Below are positions 55,751 to 63,386 of a stretch of DNA of 64,000 nt, one piece after another. How positions within the stretch are numbered: the first letter of the stretch is position 1; each line of letters opens with the position of its first letter. The DNA is from Celeribacter sp. PS-C1. Its GTDB lineage: Bacteria > Pseudomonadota > Alphaproteobacteria > Rhodobacterales > Rhodobacteraceae. The notes under the pieces were generated by a model. It ran no database searches, was not told the DNA's origin, and worked only from the letters and a program-made list of their open reading frames with translations. The stretch spans positions 1-64,000 of the forward strand of contig NZ_JAHXRW010000015.1 of assembly GCF_019429625.1 (NCBI RefSeq). The letters are read 5' to 3'. Made by a program: the position numbers and the translations under genes.

Positions 55751-57535
55751 ATGATGGACAAGACCGCTCTCCCAGATGATGCCCCTGCGCCGCCGCGCCA
55801 TCGCCTGTTCTGGGCGCTGGGCGGGGTTTTGGCCGTGGCCCTCTTGGGGCTTTCGGTTTTTGTCCTGAGTTTTCGCGCCGAATTGGATCAGGCCAGCGAA
55901 CGCGGGTCTTCTGACTTGGCGCTCGCCTCCGATCGGCTGACCACCGGGTTGCAACGATATCGCGAATTGGCGGTGTTTCTTTCGGATCACCCGACGGTTC
56001 TGGCATTGGTCTTTGCGCAAGCGCCCGGTGACAGCCCGAAGCAGGCGACTTCGGATCTGTTGCAAGGGTTGTCCGACAAGACCGGCGCGCATTCTCTGAT
56101 GGTGATCGGCGGCGCGGGGCAGGTTTTGGCCACCGCCGGAGAAACCCGCTTGCCCACGGGCGCCCGCGCAGCTGTGACCCGGGCGATGGACGGGGCCTTG
56201 GGCGTCGCGCATTTCGTCGATCTTGAGGGACGCAGGCGCTACGTCTTTGCAGCGCCCGTGTTTTCCCCCGGTGGACCCGCGCGGGGCGCCGTGGTGGTCA
56301 ATGTCGACATCGGGCTGTTGGAATGGGGCTGGCCGACCGAGGCCTCGGCGATCTATTTCACCGATCAATACGGCGTGGTCTTTGTCACCAATCGCTCCGA
56401 ACTTGTCTTGCGCGGCGGCAGTGCCGGGCCCTTGCCCGTGACCCACAGGTATACCGTCTCCGACCATGACATCTGGCGCCATCAAGCCGGGCCCTACATC
56501 CCGTCGCCCGCTTTGCACCTGACGCAGCCACTGCCAGTTGTGGGGTTAGAGGCGGAGTTGCTCATGGATTTGCGCCCAGTTCTGTCGATGGCGGGGCTGC
56601 AAGCCGGAATGGCCTCTGCGCTCGCGCTTGTTTTCGCGGCGTTCCTGTTTTTTGCCAAGGAGCGGCGGCGCACCTTGGCGGAGGCCAACGCGCGGCTGGA
56701 GGCCCGTGTCGCAGCGCGGACCGAGGCCTTGGAACTGGCCAACCGCGAGTTGCAACATGAGGTCCACGAACGCCACGAGGCCGAAGCCCGCCTCAAACGC
56801 GCGCAGGCCGATCTGGTGCAGGCCGGAAAGCTCTCTGCGCTGGGCGAAATGTCGGCGGGGATCAGCCATGAATTGAACCAGCCACTGATGGCGATCCGGT
56901 CTTTTGCGGAAAATGCGCAGGCCTTTCTGGAGCGTGAAAATCCGCAGAAGGCCGCTGACAATCTCGGCCGCATTTCCGAACTTGCCCGCCGCATGGGGCG
57001 GATCATCAAGAACCTGCGCGCTTTTGCCCGCCAAGAGCCTGAGACGATCACGGATGTGGAATTGACCAGCGTGATCGAGGCCGCATTGGAAATGACGCAG
57101 GCGAAAATCTCCAACGCGGGTGTGACACTCGACTGGACACCCGGGGCGCAGGTCTGGGTTCGGGGCGGTGAAGTGCGCTTGCAGCAGGTGGTGATGAACC
57201 TCCTGTCCAATGCCGTTGACGCCATGAGCGATGCGTCAGACAAACGGATTGAAATTCGGCTCTCTCCCGGAGATCCCACGCGGCTCACCATTTCTGACAG
57301 CGGCCCCGGCATTTCCGAGCCGGAGAAAATCTTTGACCCGTTCTACACCACCAAAGAGGTTGGCGCTTCTGAGGGCATGGGGCTTGGCCTGTCGATTTCC
57401 TACGGGCTTGTGCAGAGCTTCGGCGGGCGGATTCGCGGTGAGAACCGATCTGGCGGTGGGGCCGTGTTCACCATAGAATTGCAGCCCGCCATAAGGGGTG
57501 AGCCGCAAAAGGAGAGCCTTGATGCCACATATTGA
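55751..57535 (+). CDS. dctB: DctB-like sensor histidine kinase
   Basis: A 594-residue membrane kinase for C4-dicarboxylate-type signals. Layout: helix at about 20-40, periplasmic sensor domain (about 45-275), helix at about 279-299, coiled-coil linker, HisKA with His373 in GISHELNQPL, and HATPase with VVMNLLSNAVDAM and GMGLGLSI. It overlaps the regulator gene by 14 bases. It controls the TRAP transporter genes downstream by context. Confidence 0.9.
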   Translation: MMDKTALPDDAPAPPRHRLFWALGGVLAVALLGLSVFVLSFRAELDQASERGSSDLALASDRLTTGLQRYRELAVFLSDHPTVLALVFAQAPGDSPKQATSDLLQGLSDKTGAHSLMVIGGAGQVLATAGETRLPTGARAAVTRAMDGALGVAHFVDLEGRRRYVFAAPVFSPGGPARGAVVVNVDIGLLEWGWPTEASAIYFTDQYGVVFVTNRSELVLRGGSAGPLPVTHRYTVSDHDIWRHQAGPYIPSPALHLTQPLPVVGLEAELLMDLRPVLSMAGLQAGMASALALVFAAFLFFAKERRRTLAEANARLEARVAARTEALELANRELQHEVHERHEAEARLKRAQADLVQAGKLSALGEMSAGISHELNQPLMAIRSFAENAQAFLERENPQKAADNLGRISELARRMGRIIKNLRAFARQEPETITDVELTSVIEAALEMTQAKISNAGVTLDWTPGAQVWVRGGEVRLQQVVMNLLSNAVDAMSDASDKRIEIRLSPGDPTRLTISDSGPGISEPEKIFDPFYTTKEVGASEGMGLGLSISYGLVQSFGGRIRGENRSGGGAVFTIELQPAIRGEPQKESLDATY

Positions 57536-58751
57536 TCGCGTGCTTCTGGTCGATGACGATGCCTCCGTGCGCGAAGCGCTGGGGCAGACGTTGGAGTTAG
57601 CTGATCTCAGCGCCACGCTTGCGGGCAGCTACATTGAGGCCAAGGATCACATTTCTCGCGACTTTCCCGGCGTTGTGGTTTCCGACATCCGCATGCCCGG
57701 CAAGGACGGCTTTGCGCTTTTGGCCTTTGCGCAATCAGTCGATCCGGAACTTCCGGTGATTTTGTTGACCGGCGAGGGCGACGTGCCCATGGCGGTGCGC
57801 GGCATTTCCGAAGGTGCGTTTGATTTCCTTGAAAAACCCTGCGCGCCACAGGACTTGATCGCTGTCGTCGAAAAGGCTTTGAAAACCCGCTCTCTCGTGT
57901 TGGAAAACCGCCGCCTCAAACGACAGGTCGAACAGGGCGACGCCGCCGCGCGGCTCTTGCGCGGCTCTTCCGATCTGTCGAAACGCATGCGCGAAGAGGC
58001 CCGCGCGGTGGCGCGCTCTGCCGCCGATGTGTTGGTCACCGGCGAGCCGGGGGTGGGAACCGCGAAAATGGCCGAGGTGGTGCATCTCCTGTCGGCGGGT
58101 TCCATGGCGCCCTTCGTCAAATACCCGGCCTCTGCCATGACGGCCGAGACCCTGTCGCAGGCATTTGCGGCCGCGAAAGGCGGCTCCGTGTTTCTCGATG
58201 AGATTGCTGGCCTGTCGTCACCCGCGCAATTCGCGCTTTTGGAAGAGTTGGAAAGCCACGATCGTCCGCGCCTGATCGCCGGGACCTATGCCGATCTGAG
58301 CGAGGCGGCACGGGAAGGGCGGTTTTCGCCCGATCTGTTCTATCGGTTGGAGGCCGCCGTGATCCGCATCCCGCCACTGCGCGAGCGCCGCGAGGACATT
58401 CCGGTGCTGTTTCGCCACTACGTCAACATCGCTTGCGAGCAATCGGACCTTCCGGTGCCAGAGATCACCTCTGAGGTCATTTCAAACCTTTTGGCACAGG
58501 ATTGGCCTGGCAATGCGCGCTCGCTGATGAACGCGGCGATGCGCTTTGCAATGGGGCTGACGGAAGGCGAGGCGCAGGAGGAACTGGGCTTGGCCGAACA
58601 ACTGGCGCAGGTCGAGCGGTCCTTGTTGATCGCGGCGCTGCAACGTCACCACGGAAATGCGACTGAGGCGGCGAAGGGCCTGAAACTGCCGCGCAAGACC
58701 TTTTATGACAAGCTGACGCGGCATGGGGTGAAGGCGGAGGTGTATCGCTAA
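57522..58751 (+). CDS. dctD: DctD-like response regulator lacking the GAFTGA motif
   Basis: A 409-residue protein with a receiver domain (Asp55 in SDIRMPG, Lys105 in EKP), an AAA+ domain and a C-terminal Fis-type HTH (NATEAAKGLKLPRKTFYDKL). Within the AAA+ domain Walker B is kept (VFLDEI, 223-228) and PPLRERREDI is kept. The GAFTGA loop that contacts sigma-54 is missing, and Walker A reads GEPGVGTAKM (174-183) in place of GxxGxGKE. Sigma-54 activation is therefore unlikely, as with the GAFTGA-less NtrC of Rhodobacter capsulatus. Confidence 0.85.
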   Translation: MPHIDRVLLVDDDASVREALGQTLELADLSATLAGSYIEAKDHISRDFPGVVVSDIRMPGKDGFALLAFAQSVDPELPVILLTGEGDVPMAVRGISEGAFDFLEKPCAPQDLIAVVEKALKTRSLVLENRRLKRQVEQGDAAARLLRGSSDLSKRMREEARAVARSAADVLVTGEPGVGTAKMAEVVHLLSAGSMAPFVKYPASAMTAETLSQAFAAAKGGSVFLDEIAGLSSPAQFALLEELESHDRPRLIAGTYADLSEAAREGRFSPDLFYRLEAAVIRIPPLRERREDIPVLFRHYVNIACEQSDLPVPEITSEVISNLLAQDWPGNARSLMNAAMRFAMGLTEGEAQEELGLAEQLAQVERSLLIAALQRHHGNATEAAKGLKLPRKTFYDKLTRHGVKAEVYR

Positions 58752-58899: not shown

Positions 58900-59901
58900 A
58901 TGAAATTTCTGACTTGCGCGCTGGCCGCCAGCGCCATCATTTCGTCTGCCGGAACGGCCTTTGCGGCCTGCGATCCGGGCGAGATCGTCATCAAGTTCAG
59001 TCATATCGTCAACACGGACAAACACCCGAAAGGCATCGCAGCTTCGCTGCTGATGGAGCGGGTGAATACCGAGATGGACGGCAAGGCCTGTATGGAGATG
59101 TATCCGAACGCTACCCTCTACAATGACGATCAGGTGCTTGAGGCGATGCTTCAGGGCGATGTGCAACTGGCGGCGCCGTCGCTGTCGAAATTCGAAACCT
59201 TCACCAAGCAATTCCGGATTTTCGATCTGCCGTTCATGTTCAAGAACATCGAGGCTGTCGACGAGTTCCAAAACTCGGAAACCGGGCAGGCGATGAAAGA
59301 AGGAATGGTGCGGCGTGGCCTCTTGGGGCTGGAGTTCTGGCACAATGGCCTGAAACAGATCACGGCGGACCGTCCGGTTCAGATGCCGGAAGACCTCGAA
59401 GGGCTCAAGATGCGGGTGCAACCTGCCGAGGTGATCATCGAACAGATGCGCGCGCTCAAGGCCAATCCGCAGCCGATGGCTTTCCCCGAAGTTTACGGCG
59501 CGCTTCAGACCGGCGTGGTCGACGGCCAGCAGAATACCTATTCCAACATCTATGGTCAGAAATTCTTCGAGGTGCAGGACGGTGTGACGGAAACCAACCA
59601 CCTGCTGCTTGACTATATGGTCGTGACCTCGGTCGATTGGTGGGACAGCCTGCCCGAGGATGTGCGCACGCAATTCGGCACCATCCTGCATGAGGTGACT
59701 GTGGCCCGTAACGGGGAGTCCGAGCGTGTGAACATGGAAGCGAAACAGGGCATCCTCGATGCTGGTGGTGTCGTGCGCGAACTGACCGAAGACCAGCGGA
59801 CGGCCTGGGTCGAGGCGATGAAACCCGTCTGGGCGATCTTCGAAGAAGAAGTCGGTGCCGAGAACATCGCCGCCGCCCAAGAGATCAATGCGCGGCATTG
59901 A
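58900..59901 (+). CDS. dctP: TRAP transporter solute-binding protein, first copy
   Basis: A 333-residue periplasmic DctP-family receptor with a signal peptide (cut after AFA, residue 22) and the typical VIKFSHIVNTDKHPKG opening. Its conserved Arg in MRVQPAEV near 168 binds the substrate carboxylate. GGGAGG precedes the start. It is aligned along its whole length, without gaps, with the next gene. Confidence 0.92.
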   Translation: MKFLTCALAASAIISSAGTAFAACDPGEIVIKFSHIVNTDKHPKGIAASLLMERVNTEMDGKACMEMYPNATLYNDDQVLEAMLQGDVQLAAPSLSKFETFTKQFRIFDLPFMFKNIEAVDEFQNSETGQAMKEGMVRRGLLGLEFWHNGLKQITADRPVQMPEDLEGLKMRVQPAEVIIEQMRALKANPQPMAFPEVYGALQTGVVDGQQNTYSNIYGQKFFEVQDGVTETNHLLLDYMVVTSVDWWDSLPEDVRTQFGTILHEVTVARNGESERVNMEAKQGILDAGGVVRELTEDQRTAWVEAMKPVWAIFEEEVGAENIAAAQEINARH

Positions 59902-59927: not shown

Positions 59928-59978
59928 TGTGCGATTTTCCGCACATGCGCAATTTTCTTGCGTGCGGAAAATCGCACA
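59928..59978. promoter_or_regulatory. 17-base perfect inverted repeat between the dctP copies
   Basis: TGTGCGATTTTCCGCAC (59928-59944) and its exact complement GTGCGGAAAATCGCACA (59962-59978) flank a 17-base loop. There is no T run after it, and it sits about 200 bases before the second dctP. It could be a regulator-binding site for the DctD-like protein or a message-end hairpin after dctP1. Confidence 0.6.
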
Positions 59979-60180
59979 CTTGCGTTGGACGCATGGCCGA
60001 TATGCATTTTTGCGTTCTCTTAACATGCTGACATTAAAGGGTTTTCAAGAAATTTTTAACATTTCTTCACCTCCCCTTGATGCAAAGTGAAGCGCTTTGT
60101 TTTCTCTGCCAAGAGCCTGTCGGGGCCGTTCCGTCCCGATATGCGCCAGATCTTTCGATTTCATGACAGGGAGGATACCC

Positions 60181-61182
60181 ATGAAATTTCTCGCAACCGC
60201 TGCAACGGCCCTTGCGCTTTCCGTGACCGCTACCACCGCTTTCGCCGCCTGTGACGACGGCGAAATGGTGATCAAGTTCAGCCACGTCACCAACACCGAC
60301 AAGCACCCCAAAGGCATCGCCGCCAACCTGTTCATGGAACGCGTGAACGCTGAGATGGACGGCAAGGTCTGTGTCGAGGTCTACCCGAACTCCACGCTCT
60401 ACAACGACGATCAGGTGCTCGAGGCGATGCTTCAGGGCGACGTTCAGATGGCGGCTCCGTCGCTGTCGAAATTCGAGACCTTCTCCAAAGTTTACCGCAT
60501 CTTCGATCTGCCCTTCATGTTCAAAAACATGGACGCCGTGGAAGAGTTCCAATCCTCCGAGGCCGGTCAGAACATGAAAGAGGCCATGGTGCGTCGTGGT
60601 CTGTTGGGCCTTGGTTTCTGGCACAACGGTCTGAAACAATTCTCCGCCAACAAGCCGCTTCTGGAGCCGGGTGACGCCGCCGGTCTCAAGTTCCGTGTGC
60701 AGCCCTCCGACGTGCTCGTTGCGCAGATGAACGCGCTCGACGCCTCCCCGCAGCCGATGGCCTTCTCCGAGGTCTACGGCGCGCTGCAAACCGGCGTTGT
60801 GGACGGTCAGGAAAACACCTGGTCCAACATCTACGGCCAGAAATTCTTTGAAGTTCAAGACGGCATCACCGAGACCAACCACGGTCTCCTTGACTACATG
60901 GTCGTGACCTCCGTTGATTGGTGGGAAGGCTTGGACGCCGACATCCGCGACCAGCTCGCCACCATCATGAATGAAGTGACCGCCGACCGGAACGCCGCCA
61001 TCGCCGAAGTCGACGCCGACAACCGTCAGGCCGTGCTGGACGCCGGCGGTGTGATCCGCGAGCTGAGCGACGAGCAGCGTCAGGCTTGGGTCGATGTGAT
61101 GAAGCCGGTTTGGGCCGAGTTCGAAGGCGACGTGGGCGCCGACAACATCGCGCTGGCACAAGAAATCAACGCCAAACACTAA
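60181..61182 (+). CDS. dctP: TRAP transporter solute-binding protein, second copy
   Basis: A 333-residue paralogue of the previous gene, with the same length, signal peptide and motifs (MVIKFSHVTNTDKHPKG, FRVQPSDV). Differences gather in the region around 150-170 (ANKPLLEPGDAAG against ADRPVQMPEDLEG), near the ligand pocket, so ligand range may differ. The ATG at 60181 follows GGGAGG. It lies next to dctQ and is the more likely core partner of the transporter. Confidence 0.92.
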   Translation: MKFLATAATALALSVTATTAFAACDDGEMVIKFSHVTNTDKHPKGIAANLFMERVNAEMDGKVCVEVYPNSTLYNDDQVLEAMLQGDVQMAAPSLSKFETFSKVYRIFDLPFMFKNMDAVEEFQSSEAGQNMKEAMVRRGLLGLGFWHNGLKQFSANKPLLEPGDAAGLKFRVQPSDVLVAQMNALDASPQPMAFSEVYGALQTGVVDGQENTWSNIYGQKFFEVQDGITETNHGLLDYMVVTSVDWWEGLDADIRDQLATIMNEVTADRNAAIAEVDADNRQAVLDAGGVIRELSDEQRQAWVDVMKPVWAEFEGDVGADNIALAQEINAKH

Positions 61183-61296: not shown

Positions 61297-61986
61297 ATGA
61301 CACAATACCAAGATAATCAGCCGAAAACGGCGACAGCGCGGTTCTTTGACGGGCTCGAAGAAAACATCATCGCGCTGATCCTCGGGCTTATGACGCTCAT
61401 CACCTTCGTAAACGTGGTGCTGCGCTATGTGTTCAACCATTCCCTGATCTGGGGCCTTGAAGTGGTGCTGATCCTCTTCGCCTGGCTCGTGCTTCTGGGG
61501 ATTTCCTACGGGTTCAAAAAGACTTCGCATCTGGGCGTCGACGCGGTGATCAACATCCTGCCGTCGCGCGGTCAGCGGGTGCTCGCCATCATTTCCGCCA
61601 TTGCCTGTCTGGCCTATGCGGGTCTCCTGATGAAAGGCGCTTGGGACTACTGGGCTCCCTTTGCGGCATTGCAGCCGACCGAGGGTCGTTGGTTCCCGCT
61701 GGGCTTCACCGAGGGGGTGCGCGACCGGGCATTCTATGTCACCGATCAGGTGCCGATGCTGGGCATTTTCCGCTGGCTTGAGGACGCGATCAACTATGGC
61801 GACAGCTATGACAAGCTGCCCCGCGTAGTGCCCTATTTCATCATTCCCTTCTCGGCGGCGCTGATCCTTCTGCGCGTGGTGCAGGCCACCATCCGCATTC
61901 TCAAAGGCACACAGCACTCCCTGATCGTCTCTCACGAGGCCGAAGACGAAGTCGAGCGCGTGGCGCACGGCGAATACGAGGAATAA
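61297..61986 (+). CDS. dctQ: TRAP transporter small membrane subunit DctQ
   Basis: A 229-residue membrane protein with four predicted helices (about 20-40, 52-70, 95-115 and 180-200) and the family stretch VLRYVFNHSLIWGLEV. Compared with compact DctQ proteins it has an extended periplasmic part (about 125-175). The ATG at 61297 is chosen; an upstream frame has no homology. It is five bases from dctM. Confidence 0.9.
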   Translation: MTQYQDNQPKTATARFFDGLEENIIALILGLMTLITFVNVVLRYVFNHSLIWGLEVVLILFAWLVLLGISYGFKKTSHLGVDAVINILPSRGQRVLAIISAIACLAYAGLLMKGAWDYWAPFAALQPTEGRWFPLGFTEGVRDRAFYVTDQVPMLGIFRWLEDAINYGDSYDKLPRVVPYFIIPFSAALILLRVVQATIRILKGTQHSLIVSHEAEDEVERVAHGEYEE

Positions 61987-61991
61987 CCCCA

Positions 61992-63386
61992 ATGGATGTC
62001 GTCTTTCTCTTTGTCATGGTCATTGGCCTCCTGCTGATCGGCGTGCCGATCGCGGTCTCTCTCGGCCTCTCCTCCATGATCTTCCTTTTGGTGTTCTCGG
62101 ACACCTCTCTGGCCTCCGTGGCGCAGTCGCTCTATCAGGCGATGGCCGGGCACTATACGCTTCTGGCCATTCCGTTCTTCATTCTTGCCTCCTCGTTCAT
62201 GTCGACGGGCGGCGTGGCCAAACGCATTGTGCGCTTTGCCATCGCCTGTGTGGGGCATTTCCATGGTGGTCTGGCGATTGCGGGCGTTTTTGCCTGTATG
62301 ATCTTTGCCGCACTTTCCGGCTCGTCGCCCGCGACCGTGGTCGCCATCGGCTCCATCGTCATCGCTGCGATGCGCCAAATGGGCTACACCAAAGACTTCG
62401 CCGCCGGTGTCATTGCTAACGCAGGCACCTTGGGCATCCTGATCCCGCCCTCCATCGTGATGGTGGTTTACGCCTCCGCCACCGACGTCTCCGTTGGCCG
62501 GATGTTCCTCGCGGGCGTTATTCCGGGCCTTTTGGCTGGCACCATGCTGATGCTGGCGATCTACGTGATCGCACGGATCAAAAAGCTGCCGAAAGGTGAA
62601 TGGGCTGGTTGGAGCGAAATCGGGCGCGCGTTCCGCGAAGCCTTCTGGGGCCTCATGCTCATCGTCATCATCATGGTCGGCATTTACGGTGTGCCGGGTG
62701 TGACGGGCGCGATCTTCACGCCGACCGAAGCCGCCGCTGTGGCCTCGATCTACGCCTTCCTCGTGGCTTCCTTTGTCTATCGTGACATGGGGCCGCTGGC
62801 AGATCGCGATGGCACCGGGCCGACCTCGTTGATGAGCAAACCCTACGCGCTGGTCACGGCCTTCTTCCACAAGGACACGCGCCACACGCTGTTCGATGCG
62901 GGCAAGCTTACGATCATGCTGATGTTTATCATCGCCAACGCGCTGATCCTGAAACATGTGCTGACCGACGAACAAATTCCGCAGCAAATCGCCCAGGCGA
63001 TGCTGTCGGCGGGCTTCGGCAAGATCATGTTCCTGATCATGGTCAACGTGATCCTCTTGATCGGTGGCCAGTTCATGGAACCCTCGGGCCTGATCGTGAT
63101 CGTCGCACCGCTGGTGTTCCCGATCGCCATCGAGTTGGGCGTCGATCCGATCCACCTCGGCATCATCATGGTGGTGAACATGGAGATCGGCATGATCACG
63201 CCGCCTGTGGGGCTGAACCTCTTCGTCACCTCGGGCGTTGCCGGGATGCCGATGATGGCCGTGGTCCGCGCCGCCCTGCCGTTCCTCGCGATCCTCTTCG
63301 TCTTCCTGATCCTTGTCACCTATGTGCCCGCGATCTCGACCTACCTGCCCACGACGCTGATGGGGCCGGAGATCATCACGAACTGA
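61992..63386 (+). CDS. dctM: TRAP transporter large membrane subunit DctM
   Basis: The sodium-driven translocating subunit. At 464 residues with about 12 helices it contains the family core ALSGSSPATVVAIGSI, IIPPSIVMVVYA-type segment and GMITPPVGLNLFVTSG. An insertion at about 260-300 (YRDMGPLADRDGTGPTSLM) makes it longer than typical 425-residue DctM. A terminator follows. Confidence 0.93.
   Translation: MDVVFLFVMVIGLLLIGVPIAVSLGLSSMIFLLVFSDTSLASVAQSLYQAMAGHYTLLAIPFFILASSFMSTGGVAKRIVRFAIACVGHFHGGLAIAGVFACMIFAALSGSSPATVVAIGSIVIAAMRQMGYTKDFAAGVIANAGTLGILIPPSIVMVVYASATDVSVGRMFLAGVIPGLLAGTMLMLAIYVIARIKKLPKGEWAGWSEIGRAFREAFWGLMLIVIIMVGIYGVPGVTGAIFTPTEAAAVASIYAFLVASFVYRDMGPLADRDGTGPTSLMSKPYALVTAFFHKDTRHTLFDAGKLTIMLMFIIANALILKHVLTDEQIPQQIAQAMLSAGFGKIMFLIMVNVILLIGGQFMEPSGLIVIVAPLVFPIAIELGVDPIHLGIIMVVNMEIGMITPPVGLNLFVTSGVAGMPMMAVVRAALPFLAILFVFLILVTYVPAISTYLPTTLMGPEIITN

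Follow-up and report, generated by a model that had tools for sequence, protein, structure and literature searches.

Which RNA polymerase does a DctD-like regulator serve once its GAFTGA loop is gone, and does it switch its target genes on or off? These questions are raised by a locus in the window, a 64,000-nucleotide stretch of DNA from Celeribacter sp. (Celeribacter-like, Rhodobacteraceae), in which genes for a DctB-like sensor kinase, a 409-residue DctD, the solute-binding proteins DctP1 and DctP2 and the permeases DctQ and DctM follow one another in that order. We consider it probable, at roughly three chances in four, that this DctD and its relatives, grouped below as class d, are phosphorylation-controlled activators of dctPQM which act independently of ATP hydrolysis at a sigma-70-type promoter, having left sigma-54.

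As expected of a DctD, the window protein combines receiver, sigma-54 activator, AAA+ lid and Fis helix-turn-helix (HTH) domains in Pfam, and its gene stands beside those of a sensor kinase and of dicarboxylate-type transport. Its closest named relatives, among the matches listed, are from Celeribacter species (up to 97% identity). The initial annotation had described the GAFTGA loop as deleted and the P-loop as a broken Walker A motif reading GEPGVGTAKM, with receiver Asp55, Walker B and the HTH intact, and each of these observations held. No GAFTGA motif is present, 19 alignment columns being empty in its place; the P-loop (residues 174-183) carries T180 instead of the Walker A lysine; and D55, the Walker B sequence FLDE (224-227) and the HTH sequence PRKTFYDKL (from residue 390) are kept. 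Beyond what had been annotated, the protein has S269 in place of the first Arg finger, a role that we assign to this position by analogy with PspF-type bacterial enhancer-binding proteins (bEBPs), while the second, R275, is retained. The loop, the Walker A lysine and the first Arg finger, all features of a sigma-54 bEBP, are thus missing from the window protein.

These losses are branch-wide. A protein match of at least 400 bits, our definition of a carrier, was found in 124 of 295 Rhodobacteraceae genomes; the loci fetched were 58 from carriers, 22 more distant ones, 17 from the genus and 13 from other families of the taxonomic class, and all 58 carrier loci read were class d. The window protein, the 58 from the family draw and the 17 from the genus make up 76 aligned class-d proteins, and in 76/76 the GAFTGA loop is deleted. 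Lysine occupies the Walker A position in none of them (T in 47, I in 17, V in five, N in four, and S, M and L in one each), and position 182, hydrophobic in most of the other DctD classes, carries K in 75 proteins, the remaining one having R. The receiver Asp is kept in all 76, the Walker B D in 74 and the Walker B E in 69; across 42 sequences G174 and G177 are invariant and G179 nearly so. Since the deletion and the P-loop change are common to the 58 family-draw and 17 genus orthologues, neither is a chance event or a sequencing lesion. Class-d sequences span more than 50 genera. In a further draw of 240 genomes of the taxonomic class (cut-off E 1e-65 or better), none of 13 loci from the 11 non-family genomes with a match was class d. 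Judged from these alignments, class d is a branch of DctD found here in Rhodobacteraceae only, mostly in marine bacteria.

The remaining DctD proteins fell into four classes. Class a (13 proteins) has GAFTGA or GSFTGA, and includes L152, in which motif search gave no clear GAFTGA; class b (12) has the Thr of GAFTGA replaced, mostly as GAFPGA; class c (3) has a shortened loop with intact ATPase motifs; and class e (7) has lost the loop and Walker B, with K (5) or R (2) in Walker A. The first Arg finger is R in 28/28 proteins of classes a, b and c, in contrast to 0/76 in class d.

Sigma-54 activators carry a helix-L1-helix element at the place of the deletion. In an AlphaFold2 (AF2) model of the window DctD (42-row alignment, mean predicted local distance difference test score (pLDDT) 88.1, predicted template modelling score (pTM) 0.55), a single predicted helix, 208-217, lies there between strands 198-202 and 222-226. 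The initial annotation had pointed to structure prediction as a means of finding a GAFTGA-equivalent loop; such a replacement was sought in the model and none was seen. The modelled AAA+ fold otherwise matches FlrC (Z 24.6, 1.5 Å over 204 residues), and the modelled receiver matches the DctD receiver 1qkk (Z 23.9, 1.7 Å over 139 residues, 47% identity).

The window genome itself has rpoN. Among class-d carriers, however, a full Sigma54_DBD match is missing from 97/124, or 87/113 at 95% completeness or more, and therefore sigma-54 cannot partner class-d DctD in those genomes. We treated short partial matches (E 1e-4 to 1e-3) in G075, G095, G110, G115, G190 and G255 as absence; G075 narrowly exceeds the cut-off (23.2 vs 22.8 bits), and counting it as present gives 96/124 and 86/113. 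Across the family sample Sigma54_DBD was above cut-off in only 93/295 genomes, about two thirds of the sample being without sigma-54. Besides DctD, the window genome encodes seven NtrC-type proteins (L001-L007), and just one has an intact motif (L001, GSFTGA, encoded on the contig that also carries rpoN); L003 reads GALPGL and the other five are loop-deleted.

The promoters tell the same story. We scored -24/-12 elements upstream of dctP with weights of our own, derived from the known consensus, for which a symporter gene of Sinorhizobium medicae served as the positive control and reached the maximal score of 15.6. An element above shuffles (p 0.005 or less) precedes dctP in 7/8 GAFTGA-intact loci, the eighth, L249, giving p 0.065, as against 0/4 Thr-substituted and 0/3 class-c loci. 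In class d, one of 58 upstream regions (the 57 of the operator test below and the window dctP1 leader) reached p 0.05 or less, which is below chance expectation. The comparison of 7/8 GAFTGA-intact with 1/65 loop-deleted or Thr-substituted regions gives a Fisher p of 3.9e-8, which is indicative only because the classes are phylogenetically non-independent. The GAFTGA-intact loci with no downstream dctP (L143, L144, L147, L149-L151, L154 and L155) were left out, as was L152; of 14 additional loci fetched, seven with a readable DctD loop motif beside dctP were counted and the other seven were not. In the window, the annotated absence of a clear sigma-54 promoter before the dctP genes was confirmed, no -24/-12 match with two mismatches or fewer lying between dctD and dctP2 (the nearest, at 58492, is within dctD).

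What stands before dctP instead is a tandem operator, which had not been annotated. The inverted repeat TGTGCGG-N4-CCGCACA (at most four mismatches) was found upstream of dctP in 57/57 class-d regions (shuffle mean 12.6, maximum 17), these being 56 fetched loci and the window dctP2; L047 and L084 were dropped, having no dctP in range. At least two sites are present in 53/57 (shuffle maximum 6), and in 51/57 a pair lies 32-34 bp apart. The window pair (59928 and 59961), which includes a perfect 17-bp inverted repeat, stands, together with the IHF-like site (for integration host factor) and promoter described below, ahead of dctP2, not of dctP1. In S. medicae WSM419, read from an unannotated record, the same perfect site and, 33 bp from it, a weaker one precede the dicarboxylate symporter gene (PF00375, E 1e-109), which we take by its position to be dctA; this gene lies divergently upstream of a GAFTGA-intact DctD locus and has the top-scoring -24/-12 element. 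Because the operator also occurs in S. medicae, in class e (6/7) and in some GAFTGA-intact loci, the recognition sequence seems to predate class d without being universal. As for other DctD targets in the window genome, one more exact palindrome was found (C38:51425), with no second site, and the counts equalled those of a reversed-pattern control.

A promoter candidate was found at a nearly fixed distance from this operator. In the 19 genus-level loci aligned, CTTG is invariant, a TGT-type stretch is conserved at the -10 place and the distance to the operator is nearly constant. In class d as a whole, 46/57 loci have a [CG]TTG that begins 96-99 or 84-88 bp 3' of site 2 (shuffle mean 4.05, maximum 9), and a single start falls between the two ranges. 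With position 100 included, phased TTG occurs in 48/57 loci, 36 far and 12 near, and T----T follows 17 bp on in 29/48. The dyad TTG[ACT]NN-N17-TTNNNT was found in 23/56 loci (shuffle mean 1.3, maximum 5), adjacent spacings giving 0 to 4 loci. Measured from site 2 to the inferred start, 24 loci including the window fall at -142 to -146 (16), at -131 to -134 (6) or elsewhere (2: L088, and L078, in which a single site was detected), so that the two classes of helical phase differ by about 11 bp, one helical turn. Loci from rpoN-less genomes show the phased -35 in 32/40 cases, those from rpoN-bearing genomes in 16/17. A free expectation-maximisation search for a promoter dyad was only weakly better than a random start (likelihood 86.2 vs 84.1), and we therefore relied on the fixed-spacing and phasing tests. 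By 'sigma-70-type' we refer to geometry and the -35 element only, because the -10-like element has no A at its second position.

Between operator and promoter, an IHF-like motif (scored against a consensus of our own; at most two mismatches) is present in 48/57 loci, a moderate excess over shuffles (mean 25.3, maximum 32), and in the opposite orientation in 35/57 (mean 23.9, maximum 32). Its placement is the stronger point: in one orientation the site lies 42-43 bp after site 2 in 22 loci and 31-33 bp after it in 8. Directly 3' of site 2 in the window there is also a GCAT-N7-ATGC palindrome (59991-60005), kept in most of the 19 aligned genus-level loci.

The direction of control can be approached through Ruegeria pomeroyi, in which SPO2626 (dctM), SPO2627 (dctQ), SPO2628 (dctP) and SPO2630, named a C4-dicarboxylate transport sensor in PMC4809877, are numbered in a way that fits the window locus order. 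In the table extract from PMC10130141, whose values we took as growth loss, an assumption about the meaning of its columns, the fumarate values are 96.9 and 94.9 for the SPO2630 mutant and 96.7 and 95.0 for the dctP mutant, and the succinate values 81.8 and 58.0 as against 75.2 and 50.8; for malate one column is non-significant for both alike. The table places the sensor mutant next to those of dctM and dctP, whose values on fumarate and succinate are similar to its own. A second regulator, SPO_RS21020 on the megaplasmid, is loop-deleted with Walker A intact and annotated 'sigma-54 dependent'; the best -24/-12 score upstream of the dctP there, 9.9 of 15.6, is not convincing. From its place before dctP it is taken to be SPOA0237 (dctD-2), for which the extract from PMC10041152 gives co-culture fitness values of -0.27, -0.25 and -0.22, of the same sign as those of SPOA0238 dctP (-0.18, -0.2 and -0.18) and SPOA0240 dctM (-0.14). 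According to PMC3162934, R. pomeroyi has just one true sigma-54 enhancer-binding protein. Indirectly, these mutant data point to activation.

The mechanism that we favour would run as follows. DctB would phosphorylate D55 of class-d DctD, whose little-changed Fis-type HTH would bind the two tandem operator sites, while the AAA+ domain, hydrolysing no ATP, would provide for oligomerisation and act as a scaffold. Acting from about -143/-176 across DNA probably bent by IHF, DctD would contact a housekeeping-type RNA polymerase at the TTGANN-N17-TTNNNT promoter and so activate dctPQM, the unit controlled in the window being dctP2-dctQ-dctM. More tentatively, at somewhat short of even odds, class d may be a pseudo-ATPase lineage of bEBPs that has re-used the sigma-54 enhancer architecture of tandem sites and an IHF-like bend, now phase-locked, at a sigma-70-type promoter in mostly sigma-54-less genomes, with K182, perhaps together with Walker B D226, replacing the nucleotide in the AAA+ oligomer and phosphorylation alone driving activation at a distance.

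The initial annotation had predicted a switch to sigma-70 control or action as a repressor. Its first part, the loss of dependence on sigma-54, is strongly supported by the rpoN-less carriers, by the loss of -24/-12 elements in step with that of GAFTGA and by the fixed-distance sigma-70-type dyad; its second is less favoured than activation. Repression is known from GAFTGA-less relatives, TyrR among them, and a DctD that sits on its operator and silences dctPQM until a signal arrives from DctB would be in keeping with this. PMC3162934 lists TyrR and DhaR as dependent on sigma-70, and PMC10274813 describes the repression of some sigma-70 promoters by Caulobacter NtrC. We regard such repression as unlikely here, since the operators are centred far upstream at about -143/-176, some 100-140 bp before the -35 and not overlapping the promoter, the long phase-locked spacing suits contact, and R. 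pomeroyi sensor and dctD-2 mutants resemble transporter mutants. A regulator in decay could explain why several ATPase motifs are lost, yet it is scarcely credible when the receiver Asp (76/76), K182 (75/76) and the operator (57/57 regions) are kept across more than 50 genera. Equally remote is the reading that a replacement loop makes DctD a cryptic sigma-54 activator: the window genome does have rpoN and the model an intact AAA+ fold matching FlrC, but most carriers are without rpoN, the -24/-12 promoter is missing and a single helix occupies the loop place.

Within activation at a sigma-70-type promoter, a variant in which ATP must be bound without being hydrolysed, K182 substituting for the Walker A lysine, appears rather doubtful. 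It would account for K182 in 75/76, the Walker B D in 74/76 and the kept P-loop glycines, and Rhodobacter capsulatus NtrC, as cited in PMC10274813, needs ATP binding and not hydrolysis. However, the canonical lysine is missing in 76/76, position 182 is hydrophobic in most other classes, the first Arg finger is lost, and in the same source the Walker A mutant K178A of Caulobacter NtrC failed to grow with ammonium as sole nitrogen source.

Several observations weigh against ATP-hydrolysis-independent activation at a sigma-70-type promoter as we have set it out. The conserved K182 and P-loop glycines are compatible with some remaining binding of nucleotide or phosphate. Phased TTG is missing in 9/57 loci, and the -10-like element (TTYNCT), having no sigma-70 A at position 2, may mean that the sigma factor or the element itself is misassigned. 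Among GAFTGA-intact loci with dctP, the operator (at most three mismatches) was found in only 4/8 (L109, L145, L251 and L252). SPO2629, presumably the regulator adjoining SPO2630, may be class d, as its gene order suggests, and dctD-2 speaks for loop loss only, because it keeps Walker A. Our literature search yielded no expression, binding or ATPase data for any class-d protein.

A tree of 79 proteins over 376 columns, from which the P-loop region and gappy loop columns were left out and which was rooted by choice in classes a and b, orders the GAFTGA-intact L109 of the same family, the three class-c proteins stepwise (supports 99, 99 and 100), class e (100) and class d (96), with class b as a separate clade (100). 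Given this order, the loop was lost first and the ATPase motifs later, differently in d and e, and the tree supports two separate losses, one in clade b and one in clade c/d/e. In class b (L107, L110-L112, L114-L119, L121, L123, L239, L240 and L250) Pro, Ala or Val replaces the Thr, and 8/12 family genomes carrying it are without rpoN. In class e (L105, L106, L108, L113, L120, L122 and L146), the sister of class d, the Walker B aspartate is K in 7/7, and the sensor II Arg is lost as well as both Arg fingers; six of the seven loci have a divergent dctP with the same operator (at most three mismatches), and in three the two sites are 41 bp apart. The locus offers a natural series, from GAFTGA with a -24/-12 promoter, through loop loss with ATPase motifs intact, to forms in which the Walker A lysine has gone too or, in the sister clade, Walker B, and class d keeps the downstream tripartite ATP-independent periplasmic (TRAP) transporter and operator through it. 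With this series it can be tested directly how an enhancer-binding ATPase may come to activate the housekeeping polymerase while hydrolysing no ATP, and what leads enhancer spacing to become fixed to the helix. The annotation 'sigma-54 dependent', which R. pomeroyi SPO_RS21020 bears, is probably wrong for many Rhodobacteraceae proteins.

The features of the window locus are collected in Table 1. A kinase match lies 5' of dctD on the same strand in 58/58 class-d loci; the window kinase gave a weak match (E 7e-4) to the sensor-domain entry 3by9. The gene dctP1, which is 72% identical to dctP2, separates dctD from the operator and looks like the outcome of an insertion or duplication there; its own leader holds no palindrome of the operator type, and a dctP1 match is present in 8/17 genus loci.

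Table 1. Features of the dct locus in the window
Feature	Position	Strand	Basis or remark
DctB-like sensor histidine kinase, presumed partner	55751..57535	+	HisKA + HATPase; stop overlaps dctD start
DctD-like regulator, 409 aa, without GAFTGA, altered Walker A	57522..58751	+	Translation, Pfam, alignment
Degenerate P-loop GEPGVGTAKM (residues 174-183)	58041..58070	+	Walker A K to T180; class-specific K182
Site of missing L1/GAFTGA loop, around Q213/A214	58155..58166	+	19 empty columns; AF2 model
First Arg finger lost (S269)	58326..58328	+	Alignment of classes
Fis-type HTH	58602..58721	+	PF02954, E 1.5e-10
dctP1, additional solute-binding protein gene, between dctD and operator	58900..59901	+	Profile and locus comparison
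DctD operator site 1, TGTGCGATTTTCCGCACA	59928..59945	+	Putative; centre about -176
DctD operator site 2, CGTGCGGAAAATCGCACA	59961..59978	+	Putative; centre about -143
IHF-like site, putative	60021..60033	+ (reverse-complement orientation, 2 mismatches)	Conserved position; consensus of our own
-35 element CTTGAT	60076..60081	+	CTTG invariant in 19 genus-level loci; phased in class d
-10-like element TTTTCT, 17-bp spacer	60100..60105	+	Fixed-spacing search; inferred transcription start about 60113
dctP2, solute-binding protein	60181..61182	+	TIGR00787
dctQ, small permease	61297..61986	+	Open reading frame and neighbourhood
dctM, large permease	61992..63386	+	TIGR00786

GAFTGA-less bEBPs that act with sigma-70 are already known (R. 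capsulatus NtrC and HupR, VpsR, TyrR), and class d appears to join them by its loop deletion, upstream sites and sigma-70-type promoter, the -10 being atypical. Among the literature matches listed, with subscription literature mostly outside the search, there was no description of a GAFTGA-less DctD branch or of the phase-locked promoter geometry, and we therefore rate class-d DctD as a new variant of this group. The best NCBIfam model, PgtA (NF047793), is equally short and aligns over 6-409 to 7-414; membership was rejected at 281.8 bits against a cut-off of 650. HupR of R. capsulatus and TyrR and DhaR of E. coli, listed in PMC3162934 as GAFTGA-defective, sigma-70-dependent homologues, govern other regulons. 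The parallel that the initial annotation drew with R. capsulatus NtrC holds for the deleted GAFTGA loop and the sigma-70 action, to which PMC10274813 adds a need for phosphorylation, and fails at the nucleotide, since that NtrC is reported to need ATP binding and class d is without the Walker A lysine. Vibrio cholerae VpsR (printed VspR), with whose structures the window DctD shares 20-21% identity, is according to the same source a GAFTGA-less bEBP that acts at sigma-70 promoters and does not need ATP; in contrast to class d, with its cognate kinase and receiver Asp, it does not need phosphorylation either. The Sinorhizobium DctD proteins are alike in the receiver (S. meliloti, 1qkk), the partner kinase and the HTH sequence PRKTFYDKL, and that of S. 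medicae also in the TGTGCGG-N4-CCGCACA operator and its 33-bp tandem spacing. However, GAFTGA and the Walker A lysine are both present in S. medicae DctD and both missing from the window protein, and where the former faces a divergent symporter gene with a -24/-12 promoter, the latter faces a TRAP operon with a putative sigma-70-type one.

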